Positions 2,352 through 21,045 of a DNA stretch of 21,045 nt are shown one piece after another (the first letter of the stretch is position 1; every line of letters begins with the position of its first letter). The DNA is from a virus: IMG/VR virus record IMGVR_UViG_3300018405_000075, positions 1 to 21,045 of that record; one strand, written 5' to 3'. The notes below the pieces were generated by a model that did no database searches, was not told the origin of the DNA, and worked only from the letters and a program-made list of their open reading frames with translations. The translations under genes and the position numbers were made by a program.

Positions 2352-4763
2352 CTAGTAAACGTACGTGTTGCGCGACTTTACCGCATGATGCGCATGTTTT
2401 CTAGCGCGGGCGTCGCGCGCGTTGCCATCGGCGAACGCCATCATATTGTACTGAAAAGCGTCGTGCACGTGGCTGTATTCGTTTTTCTCGGGGCTGTCCG
2501 CCTTGACTCCTTTGCGGTTTATCGCGTAGCGGTAGCCTGCCTGGAACCCGATTATCAGTTTCTTACAGCTTGGATCGATCAGTACCGCGGGGCCTGCCTC
2601 GGTCAACAAAGACAGCCCGTCCTCCACCGCGCCTAAGCGAGCGGCTAAGACGTTGCTCGATGCTGGCACTACCTTGACCCCTAGTTCGCGCTCAACCACG
2701 CTGGCTACGGTAGCCTCGTCTGTCTGGGCACGTTGCTTGGTTGCAGGGTCCGCCGCGATAATCATTTTGCAGTCTCGGAACCGCTGGTTAATCAGGGGTT
2801 TGACCTTCTCGCGGCAGAACCGCTTGGCGCCCATGCCGTCGCTGGTCAACTCGGCCAGCACCAGTACACGGCCAAAACTATCCTGTTGTGAGAACGTGGC
2901 CGCCGGTGTAAGCCCTGCGTCGAAACCCATGATGATCGGCAGGTGTGGGTTGTATTTCAACGGCTGCTTAGCGCCGTGCAGCTCCGAGTTGAACATCTTG
3001 TACACGGGTTTGCCGCGTTGGCTGAACCCCCACAGCACCTTGATGAACTGGCTGACCCATGCTTCGGTCTTACCCTTTGCCAGTTCCATATAATACTCAC
3101 TACTGTCTGGGTCGTACGGTGGCAAGTTTTCCAAGTTCTCGGCATCTGGGCTGAACCCGCTGGGTTGGACGAAGTAGTTCAGCACTTCCTGCTGCAGCTT
3201 CGCTCCACCCTCTTCGTCTGGCCACTCATAGTTGAGCCAGTCGTACCACCAGGCGTCCTGCGTGCCTGGGTTCGATGCGCCCCAGATACCCTTCCAGGTA
3301 CAGCCGCCCTCTTTCTTCGACGGAAAGCGACCACAGCGTGACTGCAAGGCGTCAACAATCTCACGTGGGATCTCCACGAACTCATCCAGCATAGCCCCTG
3401 TGATCTCCAGAGACAGTACACTCGATACGTCATCCGCGGTATCCAGTGCTCGGAACATAACCTCGCAGTGCACGTCACTGAATCGGAACGTAAACGTCTT
3501 CGGGGTTGCGCGCCATTCACCGGCGATGCCAGGTTTGAACCACTGGAAGAATGATTTGAGCGTGGTGTCCTGCAGTTCCTTGTTCGTGTTACGCACCACT
3601 ACGAACCGCGTGTATCGGATGCCGTCTTCGGGGTTGGGCACCTGGCGTTTGGCGTGGAACAGAATTTTCATCAGGCAGGCTACTGACTTGCCCGAGTTGC
3701 CAGTAACGAACACCCGGCCGTTGTGTCGAGCCAAAAAGAAACTGGACGGGGTGCGGAAGCAGTATTGTTTGCCGCCTGGCGCCGGTACTTCGACACTCTC
3801 ATACGTCTCAGATTCTTTTACGCAGACCGCCGCCTTGCGGCTGCCCTTGGGCGATATGTGGACCGTGTATGTGGGTTTCCAGTTTGGGTTCTCGGGGTAG
3901 GTGTACGTGCTTATGGTTGCTCGACCACCTGTAGCGTGGGCCACGTATTGGATGAAGTCCGCGTCTCCTTTTGAGTTGGTAGAGAACCGGGTGTCTGGAC
4001 CCTCGAACAAACCGTCCCAATGCGACATTTCGTCGATGATCACATTTAGCTCGGTATTGTTCGCTGCCCACCACTGGGGGGTATCGAACGTCTTGCCCAT
4101 GTATGGGCTGTCAAACCTAAAGCACGTCTCTGACGGTCTGCCTGGGTATGTAGATTCTTTGTAGCTGACACCGCACGCCTTGAGTAATTCGCGAAGCCTG
4201 ATTTTCTTACGTTCTTTGCGCACGACAATGTGACACCATCGTCTTTTGTTCGTGGTTTTTTTGCCCGGCGCCGGGAAATGTCCATCCGCATGTATAGCTA
4301 CCGCCAGACGTAGAATGCGGCCAGACAATCCGGTGCCTGGGGCATCGACACAGAACGAGGTCGGTATTCGACGCACGCTCGGTTTGTCGTGTATTTTACC
4401 GGCCGGCACAACGCGGAAGTCACCCTTGTAATCGTAGTACGGAACGCGATGGTTCTCGGACAAGACCATGGATAGGGACCGCTCATTGCGGAAGTGAATC
4501 ATTTTCTCGGCAGGGGCCACTATGTACCCAAGTGGGTCTACCAATGTGACGCAGCCACCTGTGGGGTCGTTTATGGGTGATGGGGTCCACTGCGCCACCT
4601 TATCACCTGGTTCGTACTCATCGACCCGCTTCCACCCTCGGGCGGTCAAGAACTCGGTATCCCCAGACACGGGACCGACCGGACCCACGACGAAGGTATA
4701 TTTCTTGAGGCTTTGGATTACGGCCTCACCTGTAGGGGTCGGTGTGTAGTTTACGTCGCTCAT
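2352..4763 (-). CDS. terL: Large terminase subunit precursor containing an intein
   Basis: An 803-residue precursor. Removing the intein (residues 31 to 356) leaves 477 residues, normal for a phage packaging ATPase/nuclease. The joined halves recreate a perfect P-loop, GPVG plus SGKS. Walker B is GAMLDEF, with D460 and E461. The C-terminal RNase H-like nuclease has acidic residues in IIMGFDAG (D615), IIAADPA (D672) and SHVHDAFQY (D768). The protein cuts concatemers and drives DNA into the procapsid through the portal, using the small subunit for recognition. It starts at an ATG at 4763 with AAGGT about 10 bases upstream and stops at TAG. Because the intein splits the ATP-binding loop, packaging should need splicing. 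Confidence 0.95.
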   Translation of the reverse strand: MSDVNYTPTPTGEAVIQSLKKYTFVVGPVGPVSGDTEFLTARGWKRVDEYEPGDKVAQWTPSPINDPTGGCVTLVDPLGYIVAPAEKMIHFRNERSLSMVLSENHRVPYYDYKGDFRVVPAGKIHDKPSVRRIPTSFCVDAPGTGLSGRILRLAVAIHADGHFPAPGKKTTNKRRWCHIVVRKERKKIRLRELLKACGVSYKESTYPGRPSETCFRFDSPYMGKTFDTPQWWAANNTELNVIIDEMSHWDGLFEGPDTRFSTNSKGDADFIQYVAHATGGRATISTYTYPENPNWKPTYTVHISPKGSRKAAVCVKESETYESVEVPAPGGKQYCFRTPSSFFLARHNGRVFVTGNSGKSVACLMKILFHAKRQVPNPEDGIRYTRFVVVRNTNKELQDTTLKSFFQWFKPGIAGEWRATPKTFTFRFSDVHCEVMFRALDTADDVSSVLSLEITGAMLDEFVEIPREIVDALQSRCGRFPSKKEGGCTWKGIWGASNPGTQDAWWYDWLNYEWPDEEGGAKLQQEVLNYFVQPSGFSPDAENLENLPPYDPDSSEYYMELAKGKTEAWVSQFIKVLWGFSQRGKPVYKMFNSELHGAKQPLKYNPHLPIIMGFDAGLTPAATFSQQDSFGRVLVLAELTSDGMGAKRFCREKVKPLINQRFRDCKMIIAADPATKQRAQTDEATVASVVERELGVKVVPASSNVLAARLGAVEDGLSLLTEAGPAVLIDPSCKKLIIGFQAGYRYAINRKGVKADSPEKNEYSHVHDAFQYNMMAFADGNARDARARKHAHHAVKSRNTYVY
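3696..4673 (-). other. Intein with LAGLIDADG homing endonuclease, in the terminase P-loop
   Basis: This is an in-frame protein insertion, residues 31 to 356 of the precursor. The N-terminal block is PVSGDTEFL, with Pro instead of the usual Cys/Ser/Ala at position 1. Block B is LSENH. The C-terminal blocks are KQYCFRT and NGRVFVTGN, followed by Ser as the first C-extein residue. Cys334 takes the place of the usual Asp in the VYDL-type block F, and Thr354 is two residues before the terminal Asn356. These traits resemble class 3 inteins, where an internal Cys attacks the N-terminal junction. The Trp expected in block B is not evident (the residues after His are RVP). Between the splicing blocks are two LAGLIDADG-like helices, LAVAIHADG (D160) and IIDEMSHWDG (D250), so the endonuclease may still be active and spread the intein. 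Confidence 0.9.
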
Positions 4764-4776
4764 GTTCGGGGATACC

Positions 4777-4839
4777 TTATTTACCAGATACTACAGGTAT
4801 ACCACGAGTGTCGCGCGGCGACCAGTGTTTGTTGCTCAT
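4777..4839 (-). CDS. Possible 20-residue mini-cistron between small and large terminase
   Basis: A short open frame starts with an ATG that overlaps the small-terminase stop codon as ATGA and ends at TAA, 13 bases before the large-terminase ATG. The peptide begins MSNKHWSPRD. It matches no family I know. The exact ATGA overlap and its place in the only gap between two coupled genes suggest a translated leader that carries ribosomes towards the large-terminase ribosome site. Such a short frame could also arise by chance. Confidence 0.28.
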   Translation of the reverse strand: MSNKHWSPRDTRGIPVVSGK

Positions 4840-5393
4840 ACGTCGGTGATCTCCCCGTCGTACGTGTTGCCCGAAGGTTTGCCGCCCGAGAAGTTGATGT
4901 TGAGCGAGAAGCTACCGGTACCGTCAACAGATGCACCTGTCTTGTCGAAGCCGGCCCAGCGCACAATATCGTTGATCAGTTTCGCGCGCACCCGGGGGTC
5001 CATATCCTCGGTCTTGGCAATCTTGTAGGCTTCGTCAATCAGATCCTCGGCCTGGAGCTGCGCCTTGAGGGTGAACGTCGCCCCCTCTTTTTCGAGTTCT
5101 TTTTTGAGCGTGGCGACTTTCGCCAGGAACGACGTGTCGTTGACGATCAAGTCGTAGTGGTGCGGCATCAGCGAATATTCTTCGCAGATCGATTCCTTGC
5201 TGGCGCCGAGCACAAAGTCGATGACGATGCGGATGCTCCACTCGGGGCGCGAAGCCAACGAGGTCGGAGACGTAGGCACCCACGGTGGTATAGACCGCAC
5301 TATCTCCAGCGGGTCGCTACCGTCGAACACGGGCTTTCGTGGCTCGGGTGTGTCTTGCTCGATAGGGTCGCCCCACGCGAACGGATCATTCAT
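4836..5393 (-). CDS. terS: Small terminase subunit (DNA recognition)
   Basis: A 185-residue protein directly upstream of the large terminase. Small terminases form rings that recognise the phage packaging site and regulate the motor. Visible parts are a Pro-rich N-terminus, a helix-turn-helix-like stretch near residues 55 to 85 (IDFVLGASKESICEEYSL), a long charged helix around 90 to 115, and VRAKLINDIVRWAGFDKTG at about 140 to 158. A Gly/Asn-rich C-terminal tail with LNINFSGG follows and may bind the large subunit or portal. The start ATG at 5393 has CAGGAG 8 bases upstream. The stop overlaps the ATG of a possible mini-cistron. Gene order and domain character make the call strong even without a search. 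Confidence 0.85.
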   Translation of the reverse strand: MNDPFAWGDPIEQDTPEPRKPVFDGSDPLEIVRSIPPWVPTSPTSLASRPEWSIRIVIDFVLGASKESICEEYSLMPHHYDLIVNDTSFLAKVATLKKELEKEGATFTLKAQLQAEDLIDEAYKIAKTEDMDPRVRAKLINDIVRWAGFDKTGASVDGTGSFSLNINFSGGKPSGNTYDGEITDV

Positions 5394-8987: not shown

Positions 8988-9337
8988 TCACAACGCTACC
9001 GGAGAGCAGCACGGGTAAAGTTAGTAGGTTGGCTAGGTTATGTCAAGCGGGGGCTATAAAATCTATAACGAGGCGGATATGTGGGAGGTGTATTAGGTAC
9101 TGGGTTTTTGTGGGCTGGGCAAATTTTATGAGCGGCACTGCATTGTGGTTTTGTTTTTAGGGATAGTACAACTAGGACACTGTGAAATTAGGTGCTGTGT
9201 AGTGAGGCGAATGGATAAGAGAGGGTACGCACACAGCCCCTCCCCCCAGCACCCCTCGCGCCTGGAGTCAAGGGACGTTACTCGATGCCAGCTAGCAGCC
9301 CGAGCACGCCGCCAGGATTTAGCAGAGCCTCCCGCGC

Positions 9338-9403
9338 CAGCTAAGCGCTAGCCAGGTGAGCTACGCTAGCCAGCTAAGCGCTAGCCAGGTGAGCTACGCT
9401 AGC
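9338..9403. repeat. 33-base tandem repeat, two exact copies
   Basis: Two identical 33-base units (9338 to 9370, 9371 to 9403) begin CAGCTAAGCGCTAGCC. Each contains the palindromes AGCGCT and GCTAGC and a copy of GAGCTACGCTAGC. A partial copy of CAGC/GCTAGC appears upstream near 9288. They are noncoding and lie about 130 bases left of the first GTATAC site. Confidence 0.85.
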
Positions 9404-9486
9404 CAGCCAGGCACACAACAGCACACCGCCGTATAATTAAGCGCCGCACGTTAAATCTAATTATGTTTAGCGGGTGATGGCCTTGC

Positions 9487-9515
9487 TTGTTTTACGTAGC
9501 GCGCCAGGTTATAGC
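9487..9515 (+). promoter_or_regulatory. Candidate rightward promoter at the left edge of the GTATAC array
   Basis: TTGTTT (9487 to 9492) and TATAGC (9510 to 9515) are 17 bases apart. The first array element, an 18-bp perfect palindrome at 9529 to 9546, would fall just after the transcription start, so a bound protein would block it. An isolated perfect TATAAT at 9432 to 9437 lacks a matching -35. The nearest downstream gene is over 900 bases away. Confidence 0.3.
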
Positions 9516-9528
9516 GCCTAAGTAGTAT

Positions 9529-9690
9529 TCTCGCGTATACGCGAGACAATACCGCCGAGCTATCCGTATACGCGAGACGCTAATTTAGAGCTATTTGTAT
9601 ACGTGGGAGGCTATCCGTATACGCGAGACGCTAATTTAGAGCTATTTGTATACGTGGGAGGCTATCCGTATACGCGAGACGCTAAATCTA
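9529..9690. repeat. Left GTATAC array (six sites, 51-base repeat unit)
   Basis: GTATAC palindromes begin at 9535, 9566, 9597, 9617, 9648 and 9668, with steps of 31, 31, 20, 31 and 20. The last four steps arise from a 51-base tandem unit (9559 to 9609, 9610 to 9660, partial from 9661). Each unit holds one CCGTATACGCGAGA site and one TTTGTATACGTGGGAG site. The first site is the fullest: TCTCGCGTATACGCGAGA is an 18-bp perfect palindrome. Steps match two or three turns of B-DNA, so all sites face the same side. This is expected of cooperative operator or iteron arrays. Confidence 0.93.
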
Positions 9691-9738
9691 AGGCTTAACA
9701 CGTGGCTATATACTGCTAAATTAACGTAGAGCGTGTTA

Positions 9739-9769
9739 ATTCGGCACCATTATGGTGCGTTTTGCTAAA
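9739..9769 (+). repeat. Palindrome GCACCATTATGGTGC followed by TTTT
   Basis: GCACC and GGTGC pair around ATTAT and are followed by GTTTTGC. It could be a weak rightward terminator or a protein-binding palindrome. It sits between the left GTATAC array and the AT-rich core. Confidence 0.35.
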
Positions 9770-9870
9770 AATAGTGATCCAAAGGCTTGTTTTTACCCAA
9801 ATGACCGAATAGGTCACTACGGCTGAAAGGCCCATTCCAGAGCGGTTCCTCTTATTATTTATCCATGGAA

Positions 9871-10051
9871 TAGTGAAAAAAGTGAAAATAGTGAAGGAAA
9901 AATTTATAGGATACGCTGTGAGGGTTATTTGTATTCATGAGATTGTGCGGCGCGCTAAATTAACACCGCAGCATAACAACCAAAAGAATACAAACAGCCC
10001 CTAAAACGCGTTATATCTGAAAAGTCTTGTCTATTTTCACTATGTTCACTA
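9871..10051. repeat. 181-base imperfect dyad with 9-base TAGTGAAAA repeats; candidate origin core
   Basis: Three 9-base direct repeats (TAGTGAAAA, AAGTGAAAA, TAGTGAAGG at 9871, 9880 and 9889) are mirrored by two inverted ones (TTTTCACTA, TGTTCACTA, ending at 10042 and 10051). Bases 9871 to 9888 match the reverse complement of 10034 to 10051 at 16 of 18 positions. A second pair, GGGTTATTTGTATTC (9922 to 9936) and GAATACAAACAGCCC (9986 to 10000), matches at 12 of 15. Both pairs share the same centre, base 9961. The left arm is very AT-rich, as in an origin's unwinding element. More TAGTGA/TCACTA copies lie at 9772, 9814, 10100 and 10121. Confidence 0.7.
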
Positions 10052-10055
10052 ATAC
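10027..10055 (+). promoter_or_regulatory. Possible promoter overlapping the TCACTA repeats
   Basis: TTGTCT (10027 to 10032) and TAATAC (10050 to 10055) are 17 bases apart, with both TCACTA repeats lying between or on the boxes. If real, a protein bound to the repeats would directly block it. The -10 match is weak. Confidence 0.25.
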
Positions 10056-10147
10056 CCCTCTAGCATGGGCCTCCCAGGCTAGGCAACCTTGACTAATGGT
10101 CACTAAAAAGCCCCGCCGCTTCACTATTTGCCAGCATTTCTATGGTG

Positions 10148-10334
10148 TCCGTATACGGATAGCCTTAAATTAAGCCTATTTGTATACGCGAGAACGCCAA
10201 TTTAAGGCTATCCGTATACGCGAGAGCACCACACATAGCCCAATGTATACGCGAGAGCGCTAATTTAAGGCTATCCGTATACGTGGAGCCCACGCCTATT
10301 ATTCTCGTGTATACGTCAGACCTTACCTGTATAC
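10148..10334. repeat. Right GTATAC array (seven sites)
   Basis: GTATAC begins at 10151, 10182, 10214, 10245, 10277, 10309 and 10329, with steps of 31, 32, 31, 32, 32 and 20. Four sites keep the GCGAGA or GTGGAG flank seen in the left array; the first is a TCCGTATACGGA palindrome and the last two are degenerate. The regular steps equal three or two helical turns. The array ends about 35 bases before the candidate early promoter, placing it where a bound protein could control the early genes. Confidence 0.92.
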
Positions 10335-10369
10335 AGTTAGACCGCCCATCGACTAGAGCGTCTGGCGTA

Positions 10370-10398
10370 TTCTTTTGATGGTAATGCTGCGTTATGCT
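10370..10398 (+). promoter_or_regulatory. Candidate early promoter
   Basis: TTCTTT (10370 to 10375) and TATGCT (10393 to 10398) are 17 bases apart, ending 29 bases before the first early ATG. The -35 is poor and the -10 moderate, so an activator bound at the adjacent GTATAC array might be needed. The distance to the start codon fits a short leader. Confidence 0.42.
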
Positions 10399-10427
10399 AC
10401 CCACTCACAACCACGGAGCACTACATT

Positions 10428-11099
10428 ATGAAGCCACGCAAGCCCCGCCCGCTTAACTTGCCCCACCAGATGCAGGCGCGAATAACCGATAGCCAACTGT
10501 TTTTCATTCAGGTTATGGCACCCAACGAGCGCAACGCAGCCGCGCAACTGCGCAAGACGCTAGAGCGCTGCATCAATTTAGCCCTGGATACCGGAGCAGC
10601 CCCGCCCGCGTTATATGAGCACATAGCGCAGCACCGCCCTATAAAATGGAGCGAGCTATATAGCCGCGGACCCATACCAGGTGCAGACCACCTGCCCGAG
10701 CCGCATTATTCCCGCGTGCATGGCCACCCGAGGGCTGCCCAGGTAGCGCCAGGCACCAGCAACCCACGCCCTGACCCGTTCGCAGACTGGGAAGACGACG
10801 AACCCGAGCCACAACACCACGCAGCGCCACAATACACACCACCGGCCCAGGTACAGCCGCAGCCGATCCAACAACCCGCAAGCGGCCCGCAGTACCTGGC
10901 GAACCCATACGCGCACTTACCAAACAGTCAGCGACCGGCCAAATACCAGGCCACCAGGCAGACCCGACACGCGACACCCGAAGAACTAGCAGCCGAAGGC
11001 CGCCGCGCGATGCAGTACGCAGCGCTTGAAGCCCAAGGAAAAGCGCCAGCCTGGGAGCACGCACCCTGGGAGGAAGTCATACCAGACAACCAGGCATAA
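10428..11099 (+). CDS. First early protein, N-terminal helical domain and Pro/Gln-rich tail
   Basis: A 223-residue protein of unknown family. ATG at 10428 follows CGGAG about 10 bases upstream. Residues 16 to 52 (MQARITDSQLFFIQVM, then NAAAQLRKTLERCINLAL) could form a short strand and two helices, a layout shared with ribbon-helix-helix DNA-binding domains, though the match is weak. From about 90 to 175 it is Pro/Gln/His-rich low complexity, probably disordered. A helical end with PEELAAEGRRAMQYAALEAQGK follows. It is the first gene right of the GTATAC array, so it is one candidate for the protein that binds there and controls its own promoter. That role is inference. Confidence 0.7.
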   Translation: MKPRKPRPLNLPHQMQARITDSQLFFIQVMAPNERNAAAQLRKTLERCINLALDTGAAPPALYEHIAQHRPIKWSELYSRGPIPGADHLPEPHYSRVHGHPRAAQVAPGTSNPRPDPFADWEDDEPEPQHHAAPQYTPPAQVQPQPIQQPASGPQYLANPYAHLPNSQRPAKYQATRQTRHATPEELAAEGRRAMQYAALEAQGKAPAWEHAPWEEVIPDNQA

Positions 11100-15212: not shown

Positions 15213-15538
15213 AAAAGCCGATCATATACCGCACCACCGACAATCAAGCCGCACAACACCGAGCACGGCCGCGACTACTAGAAGCCGCCGATATTGTCGC
15301 GCAGTACCGCCAGCATAACCCCGACATACTAAACGAATGGCACCGCTCAAAACTGACCGGCTGTATAAAGCACGCCCGCGAATGCAGCCGCAATAGTTGG
15401 CAAGAACCCAAGCACCACAGGCGCGAGTACCTGCGCATGCGACGAGAAGCCATGCAGGATGCCCGGTACTGGCGCGACCTGGTAAACAGCACCCATGAGC
15501 GGCACACCGCCGCGGCAACCGGAGAGACGTACCCATGA
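15209..15538 (+). CDS. Basic early hypothetical protein, 109 residues, GTG start
   Basis: Function unknown. The GTG at 15209 overlaps the previous stop. The product is strongly basic, with a helix-rich middle and end (RRLLEAADIVAQYRQHN-type region, then HHRREYLRMRREAMQDARYWRDL). Abundant Arg and aromatic residues could suit RNA or DNA binding. Cys is nearly absent and there is no membrane part. The TGAGCGGCACACCG repeat sits near its end (15496 to 15509), read as ERHTA. An ATGA overlap leads to the zinc-finger/Arc-type gene. Confidence 0.68.
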   Translation: MKKPIIYRTTDNQAAQHRARPRLLEAADIVAQYRQHNPDILNEWHRSKLTGCIKHARECSRNSWQEPKHHRREYLRMRREAMQDARYWRDLVNSTHERHTAAATGETYP

Positions 15539-15978
15539 AAATGTATGTGACCAACTTCAACAAAAAACAAGGCGCCCCGATCTGGGGCCTGGAGCATATG
15601 CCAGAGGACCAGCATATGGCGAGCTGCGATCTGTGCGGCCACCTGTTCGGCACTAAAAAGGAACTACTGGCGCACTATGCTGGCGACACCCGTGTGGAAC
15701 TGGTAAAGAAACCCAAGTCGCCAGCCAACCGCACCGCCGACGCCAAGGTAGTGGTACGCATGACCGCTGGGCTGCACGATGAACTCAAGGCGACAGCCAA
15801 GGCAAACCGCCGGTCTATGAACACCGAGATCCTGCGCCGATTGAGCGGCACACCGAGCGAGTCGGAACTCGCCACCGCCGTTATGGCCGCCATGCACAAT
15901 AAATGCTTCTACGCGGCAGACGGTACTTTAATGACCGTGGAAGTCAAGCGCAGCATCTTCGACGACGTGGATAAATAG
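15535..15978 (+). CDS. Putative transcription factor: zinc-finger-like N-terminus and Arc-type DNA-binding domain
   Basis: A 147-residue protein. Residues 31 to 47 read CDLCGHLFGTKKELLAHYAG, with C31, C34 and H47 in C2H2-finger spacing but no second His at the usual place. Residues 71 to 103 read KVVVRMTAGLHDELKATAKA, then NRRSMNTEILRRL, a very good match by eye to the Arc/MetJ-type ribbon-helix-helix family, where the first strand contacts the DNA major groove and the RSMN-x-EIL helix packs the dimer. Residues 104 to 147 (SGTPSESELATAVMAAM...) may form a C-terminal tail. Such dimers bind tandem, helically spaced operators. It is thus a strong candidate for the GTATAC arrays. It overlaps the upstream gene by 4 bases. 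Confidence 0.82.
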   Translation: MKMYVTNFNKKQGAPIWGLEHMPEDQHMASCDLCGHLFGTKKELLAHYAGDTRVELVKKPKSPANRTADAKVVVRMTAGLHDELKATAKANRRSMNTEILRRLSGTPSESELATAVMAAMHNKCFYAADGTLMTVEVKRSIFDDVDK

Positions 15979-18262: not shown

Positions 18263-18640
18263 ATGCACAACCAGAAAGAATATCTTGACGATCTATGCGA
18301 CCAGATCGACGCCGCTGTATTCTCAGGCGACGCTGTACACCACGAAGAAATCCGCGGACTATTAAAGGGTTACATCGGACGGTGGCAGCGCGCTATCTTC
18401 CAAGGTGAAGAAATAAACGCCGAAGAAAACGGCACACCGCCGCCCAAGCCCGACCTGACTTTGCCCGCGAAGTGGATGACCAAATACCACACTGCAGGTA
18501 AAGACCCTGGCTACCTGATCCGCTCCCCACGCATCAACGGCGTCGCCGCTAACACGTTCGTATGGGCTGGTGCAGATAACCCCGCCGAACGCATGCTGTA
18601 CCTCATCCTGTCAACCCACAACACCATCGAAACGGAGTAA
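18263..18640 (+). CDS. Hypothetical protein, 125 residues
   Basis: Function unknown. ATG at 18263 carries the recurring leader. The product starts MHNQKEYLDDLCDQIDAAVF, has a helical first half with EEIRGLLKGYIGRWQRAIFQGEEI, and a second half with PAKWMTKYHTAGKDPGYLIRSPRINGVAA and ERMLYLILSTHNTIETE. This reads as a two-part protein, helical then mixed. It is the first gene behind the TTGACA promoter. It ends 7 bases before the Nmad5-like gene, whose ribosome site (ACGGAGTAACACC) overlaps its end. Confidence 0.7.
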   Translation: MHNQKEYLDDLCDQIDAAVFSGDAVHHEEIRGLLKGYIGRWQRAIFQGEEINAEENGTPPPKPDLTLPAKWMTKYHTAGKDPGYLIRSPRINGVAANTFVWAGADNPAERMLYLILSTHNTIETE

Positions 18641-18647
18641 CACCGCC

Positions 18648-19247
18648 ATGTCTAAGCTGACACACGACCTCAAGTCCACCATCAAGGCCAACGCTTGCAC
18701 ATCTGCAGGTCTGGACAAACAACACGAACAGATCCAAGCCGCCAAGGCTACGCTGGCCGAAGACCTGTATTCCCTACGCATGAGCGAGTACAAGCACGAT
18801 ATACCACACATTGAAGCACTGGAGAAAAGCATAGCCGAGACCATACCCGAAGGACTGCGTTGCTCTATAGTGTTGGTGGGGCGGGGCACGAGACAGCTGT
18901 ACAATGTTGGTGGTGAAGTCCACCGAATAGACTACCCTGGCGAACCCCGTATTCTCGACACTAAGAACAAGGGTTTCGCCATCCAGGCATCCCACCCATT
19001 GGCAAAACGACTGACCAAACTGAACAACCAGGCGGCAGACCTTAAAGACCGGTACGACCAGGTCAAAGCCGAGGTCGGCGCCGTGTTGTCCAGCGTCAAT
19101 ACTATTCCCCAGCTCCTGAAAGTGTGGCCCGAAGCCAAAGAATTACTACCTGAGCGCAACAAACCAGCACCTGCTCAGTTGCCGGCCGTACAAATCCAAC
19201 ACCTGAATAGCGTGCTGGGCCTTCCTACTGATTCCGAAACGGAGTAA
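18648..19247 (+). CDS. Nmad5-like protein (nucleotide modification associated domain 5)
   Basis: A 199-residue protein. The layout matches what I know of the Nmad5 family: a helical N-terminus (EDLYSLRMSEYKHDI), a beta segment with LYNVGGEVHRIDYPGEPRI, HPLAKRLTKLNNQAADLKDRYDQVKAEVGAVLSSV at 116 to 150, NTIPQLLKVWPEAKELLP at 151 to 168 and LPAVQIQHLNSVLGLPT at 178 to 194. The family was named by comparative genomics from phages with modified DNA bases; no reaction has been assigned. It sits between dUTPase and the DEDDh exonuclease, which supports a role in DNA metabolism. The ribosome site is CGGAG. It leads to the next gene after 4 bases. Confidence 0.78.
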   Translation: MSKLTHDLKSTIKANACTSAGLDKQHEQIQAAKATLAEDLYSLRMSEYKHDIPHIEALEKSIAETIPEGLRCSIVLVGRGTRQLYNVGGEVHRIDYPGEPRILDTKNKGFAIQASHPLAKRLTKLNNQAADLKDRYDQVKAEVGAVLSSVNTIPQLLKVWPEAKELLPERNKPAPAQLPAVQIQHLNSVLGLPTDSETE

Positions 19248-20530: not shown

Positions 20531-21045
20531 ATAAGCCCACCAACCCCAAGGACATCATGGCCATCGGTAAAGTTGGTATGTCTGTGTTACCAGCACAGGT
20601 AATGTTAGAGGTAGCCACGGCTATGGCCGAAGGCGCTTGTAAATACGGACTCTATAACTATCGATCTGCAGGCGTCCGCGCCAGCATCTATTACGACGCC
20701 ACGCTGCGGCACCTGATCGCGTGGTGGGAGGGCGAGGACATCGACGACGCGTCCAGCCTGTCCCACATCACTAAGGCTATCAGTAGCCTGGTCGTACTGC
20801 GCGACGCCATGCTCAACGATACGCTCACCGACGACCGCCCACCGCGCCCCAAGGTGCAGATCGGCAAGCACATCGAATCCCTCAACGAGATATGCGCCAG
20901 CTTGATCGAGCGACACAAAGGCGCGGACGTGACCCACTACACGCACGCTGACCTGGGTGGTGTGGTTGATACGCGGGTAGAGAACTACTTCCCGACCACC
21001 GACGCCCACCCGGACGCTTGGGACGAGGGTGAGAAGCGCATAAAC
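20527..21045 (+). CDS. Putative dATP/dGTP diphosphohydrolase, DUF5664-type (3' end off window)
   Basis: The first 173 codons are present; the frame is still open at the right edge. The start MNKPTNPKDI is followed by AEGACKYGLYNYRSAGVRAS (35 to 54), then YYDATLRHLIAWWEGEDIDDASSLSHITKAISSL with acids at E68, E70, D71, D73 and D74. This matches by eye the family once called DUF5664 and now named dATP/dGTP diphosphohydrolase, N-terminal domain, whose reference is the MazZ-type enzyme of Vibrio phage phiVC8. Those enzymes hydrolyse dGTP and dATP in phages that use 2-aminoadenine, but the family is wider than Z-DNA phages. It overlaps the DUF7220-like gene by 4 bases (ATGA). Confidence 0.86.
   Translation, partial: MNKPTNPKDIMAIGKVGMSVLPAQVMLEVATAMAEGACKYGLYNYRSAGVRASIYYDATLRHLIAWWEGEDIDDASSLSHITKAISSLVVLRDAMLNDTLTDDRPPRPKVQIGKHIESLNEICASLIERHKGADVTHYTHADLGGVVDTRVENYFPTTDAHPDAWDEGEKRIN

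Follow-up and report, generated by a model that had tools for sequence, protein, structure and literature searches.

Does replication begin in the symmetric DNA that separates the two divergent gene blocks of this phage, or does this DNA serve another purpose? The window, by which we mean the whole stretch of DNA analysed (21,045 bases, the complete virus record), belongs to a phage related to Pseudomonas phage Rollin; its portal is 60% identical to the Rollin portal and about 25% identical to those of HMO-2011-like phages. According to the ORF map, late genes run leftward and early genes run rightward from 10428, and the intergenic region between them contains the entire element described below. 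To our knowledge, few replication origins have been located in lytic tailed phages other than the model ones. We found no origin for this phage group in the literature, an absence that is no proof that none exists.

195–2339, leftward: portal, late gene.
2352–4763, minus strand: large terminase with inserted intein, late gene.
4836–5393, leftward: small terminase (assigned by position), late gene.
9060–10427, no strand: divergent intergenic region between late (minus) and early (plus) genes.

The near relatives compared are G001 (60,075 bases; loci L026–L028), Rollin (61,282 bases; L023/L024), G006 (46,577 bases; L030), and G008 (13,957 bases; L037/L042). L030 and G008 are ~80% identical in the region and were counted as one lineage, which leaves four independent lineages: the window, G001, L030/G008, and Rollin. 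G001 and Rollin have a divergent intergenic region at the equivalent place. A blastn search of the phage collection with the region gave no match, and a portal scan of the genome contigs found no relative. The terminase intein (~325 residues, within 2352–4763, minus strand) lies in-frame inside the Walker A motif (GPVG / SGKS); by alignment it would start with a proline (PVSGDTEFLT), not a cysteine or serine, and end with GN, and it also occurs in L004 and is absent from G001, Rollin, and G006.

The preliminary description had claimed a 181-base imperfect dyad centred on 9961, with two arm pairs sharing that centre. The centre is exact, since 52 of 90 mirrored positions pair and centres half a base or one base off pair only 24–31 of 90. 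No other centre in the 21-kb window gives a better dyad (z 6.9), and in a check against chance none of 300 Markov shuffles of the local 450 bp reaches 52 (best dyad per shuffle, mean 36.5, sd 1.8). The top dyad of G008 lies at the equivalent place. The 181-base unit is thus real, but it is merely the core of an element of ~800 bp.

9871–9896 and 10026–10051: outer arms, 85% complementary.
9922–9946 and 9976–10000: inner arms, 76% complementary.

The outer arms are iterons (element A). As described, 9-base direct repeats on the left are mirrored by inverted copies on the right, with three units on each side, the third minus-strand unit being degenerate.

9871–9897, plus strand: late-side iteron set, TAGTGAAAA, AAGTGAAAA, and TAGTGAAGG at 9871, 9880, and 9889 (9-bp period; −90 to −64 from the centre).
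10025–10051, minus strand: early-side iteron set, TAGTGAACA, TAGTGAAAA, and degenerate TAGACAAGA (+64 to +90 from the centre).
9772–9777, plus strand: outlying TAGTGA.
9814–9819, minus strand: outlying TAGTGA.
10100–10105, minus strand: outlying TAGTGA.
10121–10126, minus strand: outlying TAGTGA.
9845–9944, no strand: candidate unwinding element, the least stable 100 bp, overlapping the late-side iterons.

The triplet at 9871–9897 is the sole 8–11-bp tandem triplet of such quality in the window, and TAGTGA occurs eight times in 9700–10150 (0.18 expected in 450 bp), including the further TAGTGA/TCACTA copies reported on either side (9772, 9814, 10100, and 10121). The left arm is AT-rich, and in the stability profile no 100 bp of the window is less stable than 9845–9944 (−116.2 versus a window mean of −147.8, sd 7.7). 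The least stable 100 bp overlaps an iteron set in the window, Rollin, and the G008 contig, and falls within the equivalent region in G001. The cumulative AT-skew minimum also lies at the element region in both near-complete genomes, but AT skew and gene direction cannot be separated, which weakens it as an argument for an origin.

A second repeat, the GTATAC palindrome (element B), occupies both flanks of the dyad: 13 of the 15 copies in the window are in this intergenic region, in arrays at 9535–9673 and 10151–10334. Their steps are near 31 and 20.5 bp, i.e., three and two helical turns, so the B sites all lie on one face of the DNA. When the 21 kb was scanned with a weight matrix of the 13 sites, the highest-scoring additional site was at 9931, which lies within the dyad, and the inner arms thus correspond to a facing pair of degenerate B copies; the preliminary description had seen these arms and had not recognised them as copies of a second repeat.

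9529–9681, no strand: late-side B array of six palindromes, GTATAC core at 9535, 9566, 9597, 9617, 9648, and 9668 (steps 31, 31, 20, 31, and 20).
10146–10340, no strand: early-side B array of seven palindromes at 10151, 10182, 10214, 10245, 10277, 10309, and 10329 (steps 31, 32, 31, 32, 32, and 20).
9922–9945, plus strand: inner degenerate B palindrome (GTATTC), centre −27.5, the best non-training matrix match in 21 kb.
9976–10000, minus strand: inner degenerate B palindrome (GTATTC), centre +27.5, inverted with respect to the former; its position fits the G008/L030 pairs at ±28.
10364–10391, plus strand: further degenerate B-like copy before the first early gene, 88% complementary to 9967–9991.
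10058–10086, plus strand: element D, CTCTAGCATGGGCCTCCCAGGCTAGGCAA, imperfectly palindromic and located beyond the early-side iterons; also conserved in G001, L030, and G008.
9817–9842, minus strand: second copy of element D, CTCTGGAATGGGCCTTTCAGCCGTAG, outside the late-side iterons.
9744–9758, plus strand: terminator-like hairpin, GCACCATTATGGTGC plus GTTTT, also in G008 and L030.

Element D (CTCTAGCATGG...CAGC.TAG) is present on both sides in the window; G001, L030, and G008 have it on their late side. Its opposite-strand alignment had suggested that the centre is inverted between the window and its relatives, an idea that was dropped given the second D copy on the other side. The D pattern also matches contig L045, by chance, within a coding gene of an unrelated phage. 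A search with the B-site pattern returned 15 single-copy hits, none of which matches window proteins by tblastn. Elsewhere in the intergenic region, a GC-rich late-side leader (9215–9290, minus strand) contains a run resembling GAGGGGTGCTGGGGGGAGGGG; Rollin, L030, and G008 have a similar G-rich block with GACTAGGAGTCCC at the equivalent place, possibly a late leader or a G-quadruplex. A 33-bp tandem repeat (GAGC...CCAGCTAAGCGCTAGCCAGGT; two copies, 85% identical) lies at 9325–9390 (plus strand).

Comparison with relatives, which had been proposed as a check, revealed origin-like parts that are conserved by position, not by sequence. Each relative has both A and B in the intergenic region between early and late genes, at an equivalent place. 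The A unit is TAGTGAAAA (TAGTGAA) in the window, TAGTTAA and close variants of it in G008 and L030, TAATAGTAA (iteron TAGTAA) in G001, and TATGCAAAG (iteron TATGCAA) in Rollin, and the B core is CGTATACG in the window and G001, ATTACCCAWTGGGTAAT (ATTACCC/GGGTAAT) in G008 and L030, and AAAAGGTAGTAACTTACTACCTTTT (GGTAGTAAC/GTTACTACC) in Rollin. In the window the iteron sets occupy ±64–90 bp from the centre; G008 and L030 have them at nearly equal distances, and G001 at ±72–98 bp. The inner B pair is at ±27.5 in the window and ±28 in G008 and L030, and G001 keeps one site, at 29.5. Eight of the nine TATGCAA copies in the 61 kb of Rollin fall within this one region (three in each orientation about the centre and two others), and its B sites are arranged differently.

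The outer arrays of two relatives are also mirrored. All five B pairs of L030 mirror within 2 bp (221/222, 274/275, 306/307, 337/339, and 28/28), as do four pairs of G001 within 1 bp (175.5, 229.5, 291.5, and 374.5/375.5) around a centre set from the iterons alone; when the gaps were redealt, p was 0.002 for L030 and 0.005 for G001. In the window itself, the outer arrays do not mirror each other base for base (p about 0.4), and those of G008, which shift by ~12 bp on one side, are not mirrored beyond chance, which counts against an origin. Exact symmetry is therefore a property of the core only in the window and of the whole element in G001 and L030. The Rollin record begins and ends inside a B repeat, and the L030 contig likewise starts within the element. 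Because the junction of the Rollin record falls within a B palindrome (L024:11260–11282, L023:1–30) and the record has an N run at 987–1086, the outer layout, circular junction, and B copy number of Rollin are uncertain.

The distant relative L034 (terminase 43% and PrimPol 29% identical) has its own nested dyad and a tandem set of 8-bp units and lacks B arrays, which would fit an iteron core that predates the rest of the element. The dyad is centred at about 6697 (L034:6518–6877), with CAATAAGACAG repeats and a DnaA-box-like TATCCACGG near the centre, and lies near the gene divergence point, not exactly on it.

G001 and Rollin encode a 990-residue protein with primase-polymerase and DUF927 parts (PrimPol-DUF927), along with DNA polymerase A, a PDDEXK nuclease, and an SNF2 helicase; G006 also encodes PrimPol-DUF927. 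The helicase part matches Cch of SCCmec (NCBIfam NF047345, E 6e-14 and 6e-16; PDB: 5dgk, E 2e-14) and a SaPI protein (PDB: 8tch, E 4e-5). Three observations speak against an origin here. The window contig, which ends at 21,045, has no helicase gene. The gene lies tens of kilobases from the dyad in G001 (about 45.5–48.5 kb versus 12.57 kb) and Rollin (32.9–35.9 kb versus near 0.4 kb), unlike in PICIs. No segment of PrimPol-DUF927 co-varies with the iteron sequence, and hence none singles out the iteron-binding protein.

10428–11099, plus strand: first early gene (223 aa), encoding a candidate B-binding protein with a homologue in G001.

The first early protein appears to comprise a small N-terminal helical domain followed by a proline-rich tail, and has candidate counterparts in G008 and Rollin, recognised by position and a by-eye motif. 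A QxQxR stretch near the N-terminus is found in the proteins of the window and G001 and is absent in the G008 and Rollin candidates; among these four sequences, compared by eye, the carriers are those that share the B core CGTATACG. The B arrays call for a protein of their own, and this product is a candidate, its gene lying next to them and having these counterparts. AF2 predicted helices at residues 21–30 and 37–55 (pLDDT 74) and no strand. For this protein, Foldseek, VIA-align, Pfam, and PDB profile searches were all negative, as was hhalign against the window's own Arc-type protein; a ribbon-helix-helix fold, guessed from a by-eye pattern, gained no fold or profile support from these searches and is conjectural. 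The Arc-type protein is an early protein (15535–15978, plus strand) with a ribbon-helix-helix domain at residues 69–104, preceded by a CxxC...H zinc-finger-like stretch, and weakly matches the conjugation regulator TprA. Another plus-strand gene (18570–19247) encodes a protein with an Nmad5 nucleotide-modification domain, which, together with a dATP/dGTP diphosphohydrolase of G001, hints at modified DNA in the group.

We propose, at a probability of roughly 60%, that the element is an iteron-type origin from which replication proceeds in both directions, enclosed by arrays that another protein, possibly encoded by the first early gene, would bind. This reading builds on the rank of the core dyad as the best in the window, on the conserved spacing of the sites, on the anatomy (a pair of facing iteron sets, one of which the least stable DNA overlaps), on the replication genes of G001 and Rollin, above all PrimPol-DUF927 (also in G006), on the nested dyad and tandem set that L034 has in the absence of B arrays, on the position of the AT-skew minimum, and on the finding that sigma-70-like sites are not above chance. 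The earlier suggestion of iterons beside an AT-rich unwinding element is partly supported: all parts are present and kept in relatives, which also encode an initiator-type helicase, and together they make a good circumstantial case; a divergent control region remains as a competitor, and the helicase gene is missing from the window contig.

The sites, the symmetry of their core, the conserved spacing, the instability, and the helicase family in relatives are observed; the origin function, the assignment of proteins to sites, and the direction and order of events given here are inferred. An initiator, likely the phage PrimPol-DUF927 helicase, possibly with a helper, would bind the two facing sets of 9-bp iterons, assemble as two complexes, and melt the unstable DNA within and between the sets. 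Forks would exit both ways, each running in the direction of the gene block, early or late, that it enters. The flanking B arrays and the inner pair would be filled by another, dimeric protein, perhaps the first early gene product, which would fold roughly 800 bp into one complex and probably would also control divergent transcription.

Several features of this proposed origin have counterparts in known systems. An AT-rich region with an iteron set on either side is a constant feature of PICI origins (PMC6092414). Cch is a relative of the SaPIbov1 Rep; SaPI Reps attach to iterons, apparently as a pair of hexamers, and the SaPIbov1-type initiator helicase belongs to the DUF927 family and reads short repeats (PMC7581432). 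Similarly, the window has A sets at −90 to −64 and +64 to +90, with AT-rich DNA between and around them that is its least stable, and the phage's relatives encode a DUF927 helicase that matches Cch and the SaPI protein. PICIs carry their DUF927- or D5-type initiator helicase in the element itself; G001, Rollin, and G006 encode such a helicase, and its gene is not on the window contig. The differences are that the PICI origin follows rep, whereas here (G001 and Rollin) it would lie in the early/late intergenic region; that the helicase of the phage relatives is fused to a primase-polymerase; that about 128 bp separate the two facing iteron sets; and that large palindrome arrays frame them, for which the literature consulted describes no counterpart. 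By analogy, the element may work like a PICI origin; since its initiator gene does not lie next to it, we do not class it as one. The origin of phage lambda (O iterons plus an AT-rich region) likewise has tandem iterons beside easily melted DNA. In lambda, a single group of palindromic iterons lies within the O gene, whereas here two facing sets of 9-bp units lie in intergenic DNA. The origin of PLE satellites is intergenic, with semi-palindromic iterons of ~30 bp and RepA, and among PLE variants the origin sequence and the initiator domain are exchanged together (PMC8263062). The semi-palindromic repeats of about 30 bp in an intergenic origin are the shared feature; PLE differs in its RepA_N initiator, its three iterons, and its lack of facing 9-bp sets.

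If the element were instead a divergent transcription switch, A and B would be operators or activator sites for early and late promoters, with no role in replication. Such a role would suit palindromes phased at about 31 and 21 bp, as cooperative repressors might occupy them, and a candidate DNA-binding gene that is the first early gene; and the region is the point between divergent early and late blocks where promoters are expected, which is also an argument against an origin. Yet sigma-70 hexamer sites are no commoner than in shuffles (found versus expected: window, 2 versus 2.0; G008, 1 versus 1.9; G001, 2 versus 2.2), which lends no support to a sigma-70 divergent promoter region in any of the three. 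A switch would have to time early and late promoters oppositely, yet the core is alike on both sides, a two-sided symmetry that suits two forks better than an early/late switch. The reach of the B arrays, up to 420 bp from the centre, and the L034 dyad, which lacks B arrays and is not exactly at the divergence point, also argue against a switch, which we consider rather unlikely.

It is considerably less probable that the small terminase or a partition protein binds here, at a packaging (pac/cos) or centromere-like site. The small terminase gene is 4.5 kb away and phased palindrome arrays resemble centromere arrays, but the small terminase is 62–67% identical across genomes where B is wholly different, and ParA is not one of the 11 Pfam families detected in 35 proteins of G001. 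That the L030 contig and the Rollin record start inside the element could point to packaging, but assembly is expected to end contigs in tandem repeats. Least probable by a wide margin is that a tyrosine integrase uses the element as an attachment site with arm-type sites: the iterons (TTCACTAT), which resemble lambda arm-type sites, do form short tandem sites in both arms of a symmetric core, but G001, Rollin, G006, and G008 have no Phage_integrase (PF00589) match in a search that detected all 14 controls plus two more distant relatives, and this candidate was rejected on the near relatives, the window's own genome being incomplete.

The preferred reading, a bidirectional origin, gives a testable candidate in a phage group of which one member, Rollin, is in culture, and connects this group with the DUF927 initiator helicases of staphylococcal islands. 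We tentatively suggest that the element may represent an undescribed class of phage origin, in which a facing double iteron set sits in a mirror-symmetric, helically phased scaffold of ~800 bp; its geometry would be inherited within a few bases while the recognition sequences and the reader protein are replaced, so that shape is conserved and sequence is not. The relatives form a natural series with fixed spacing and changing binding sequences, in which site geometry and recognition may be studied separately.
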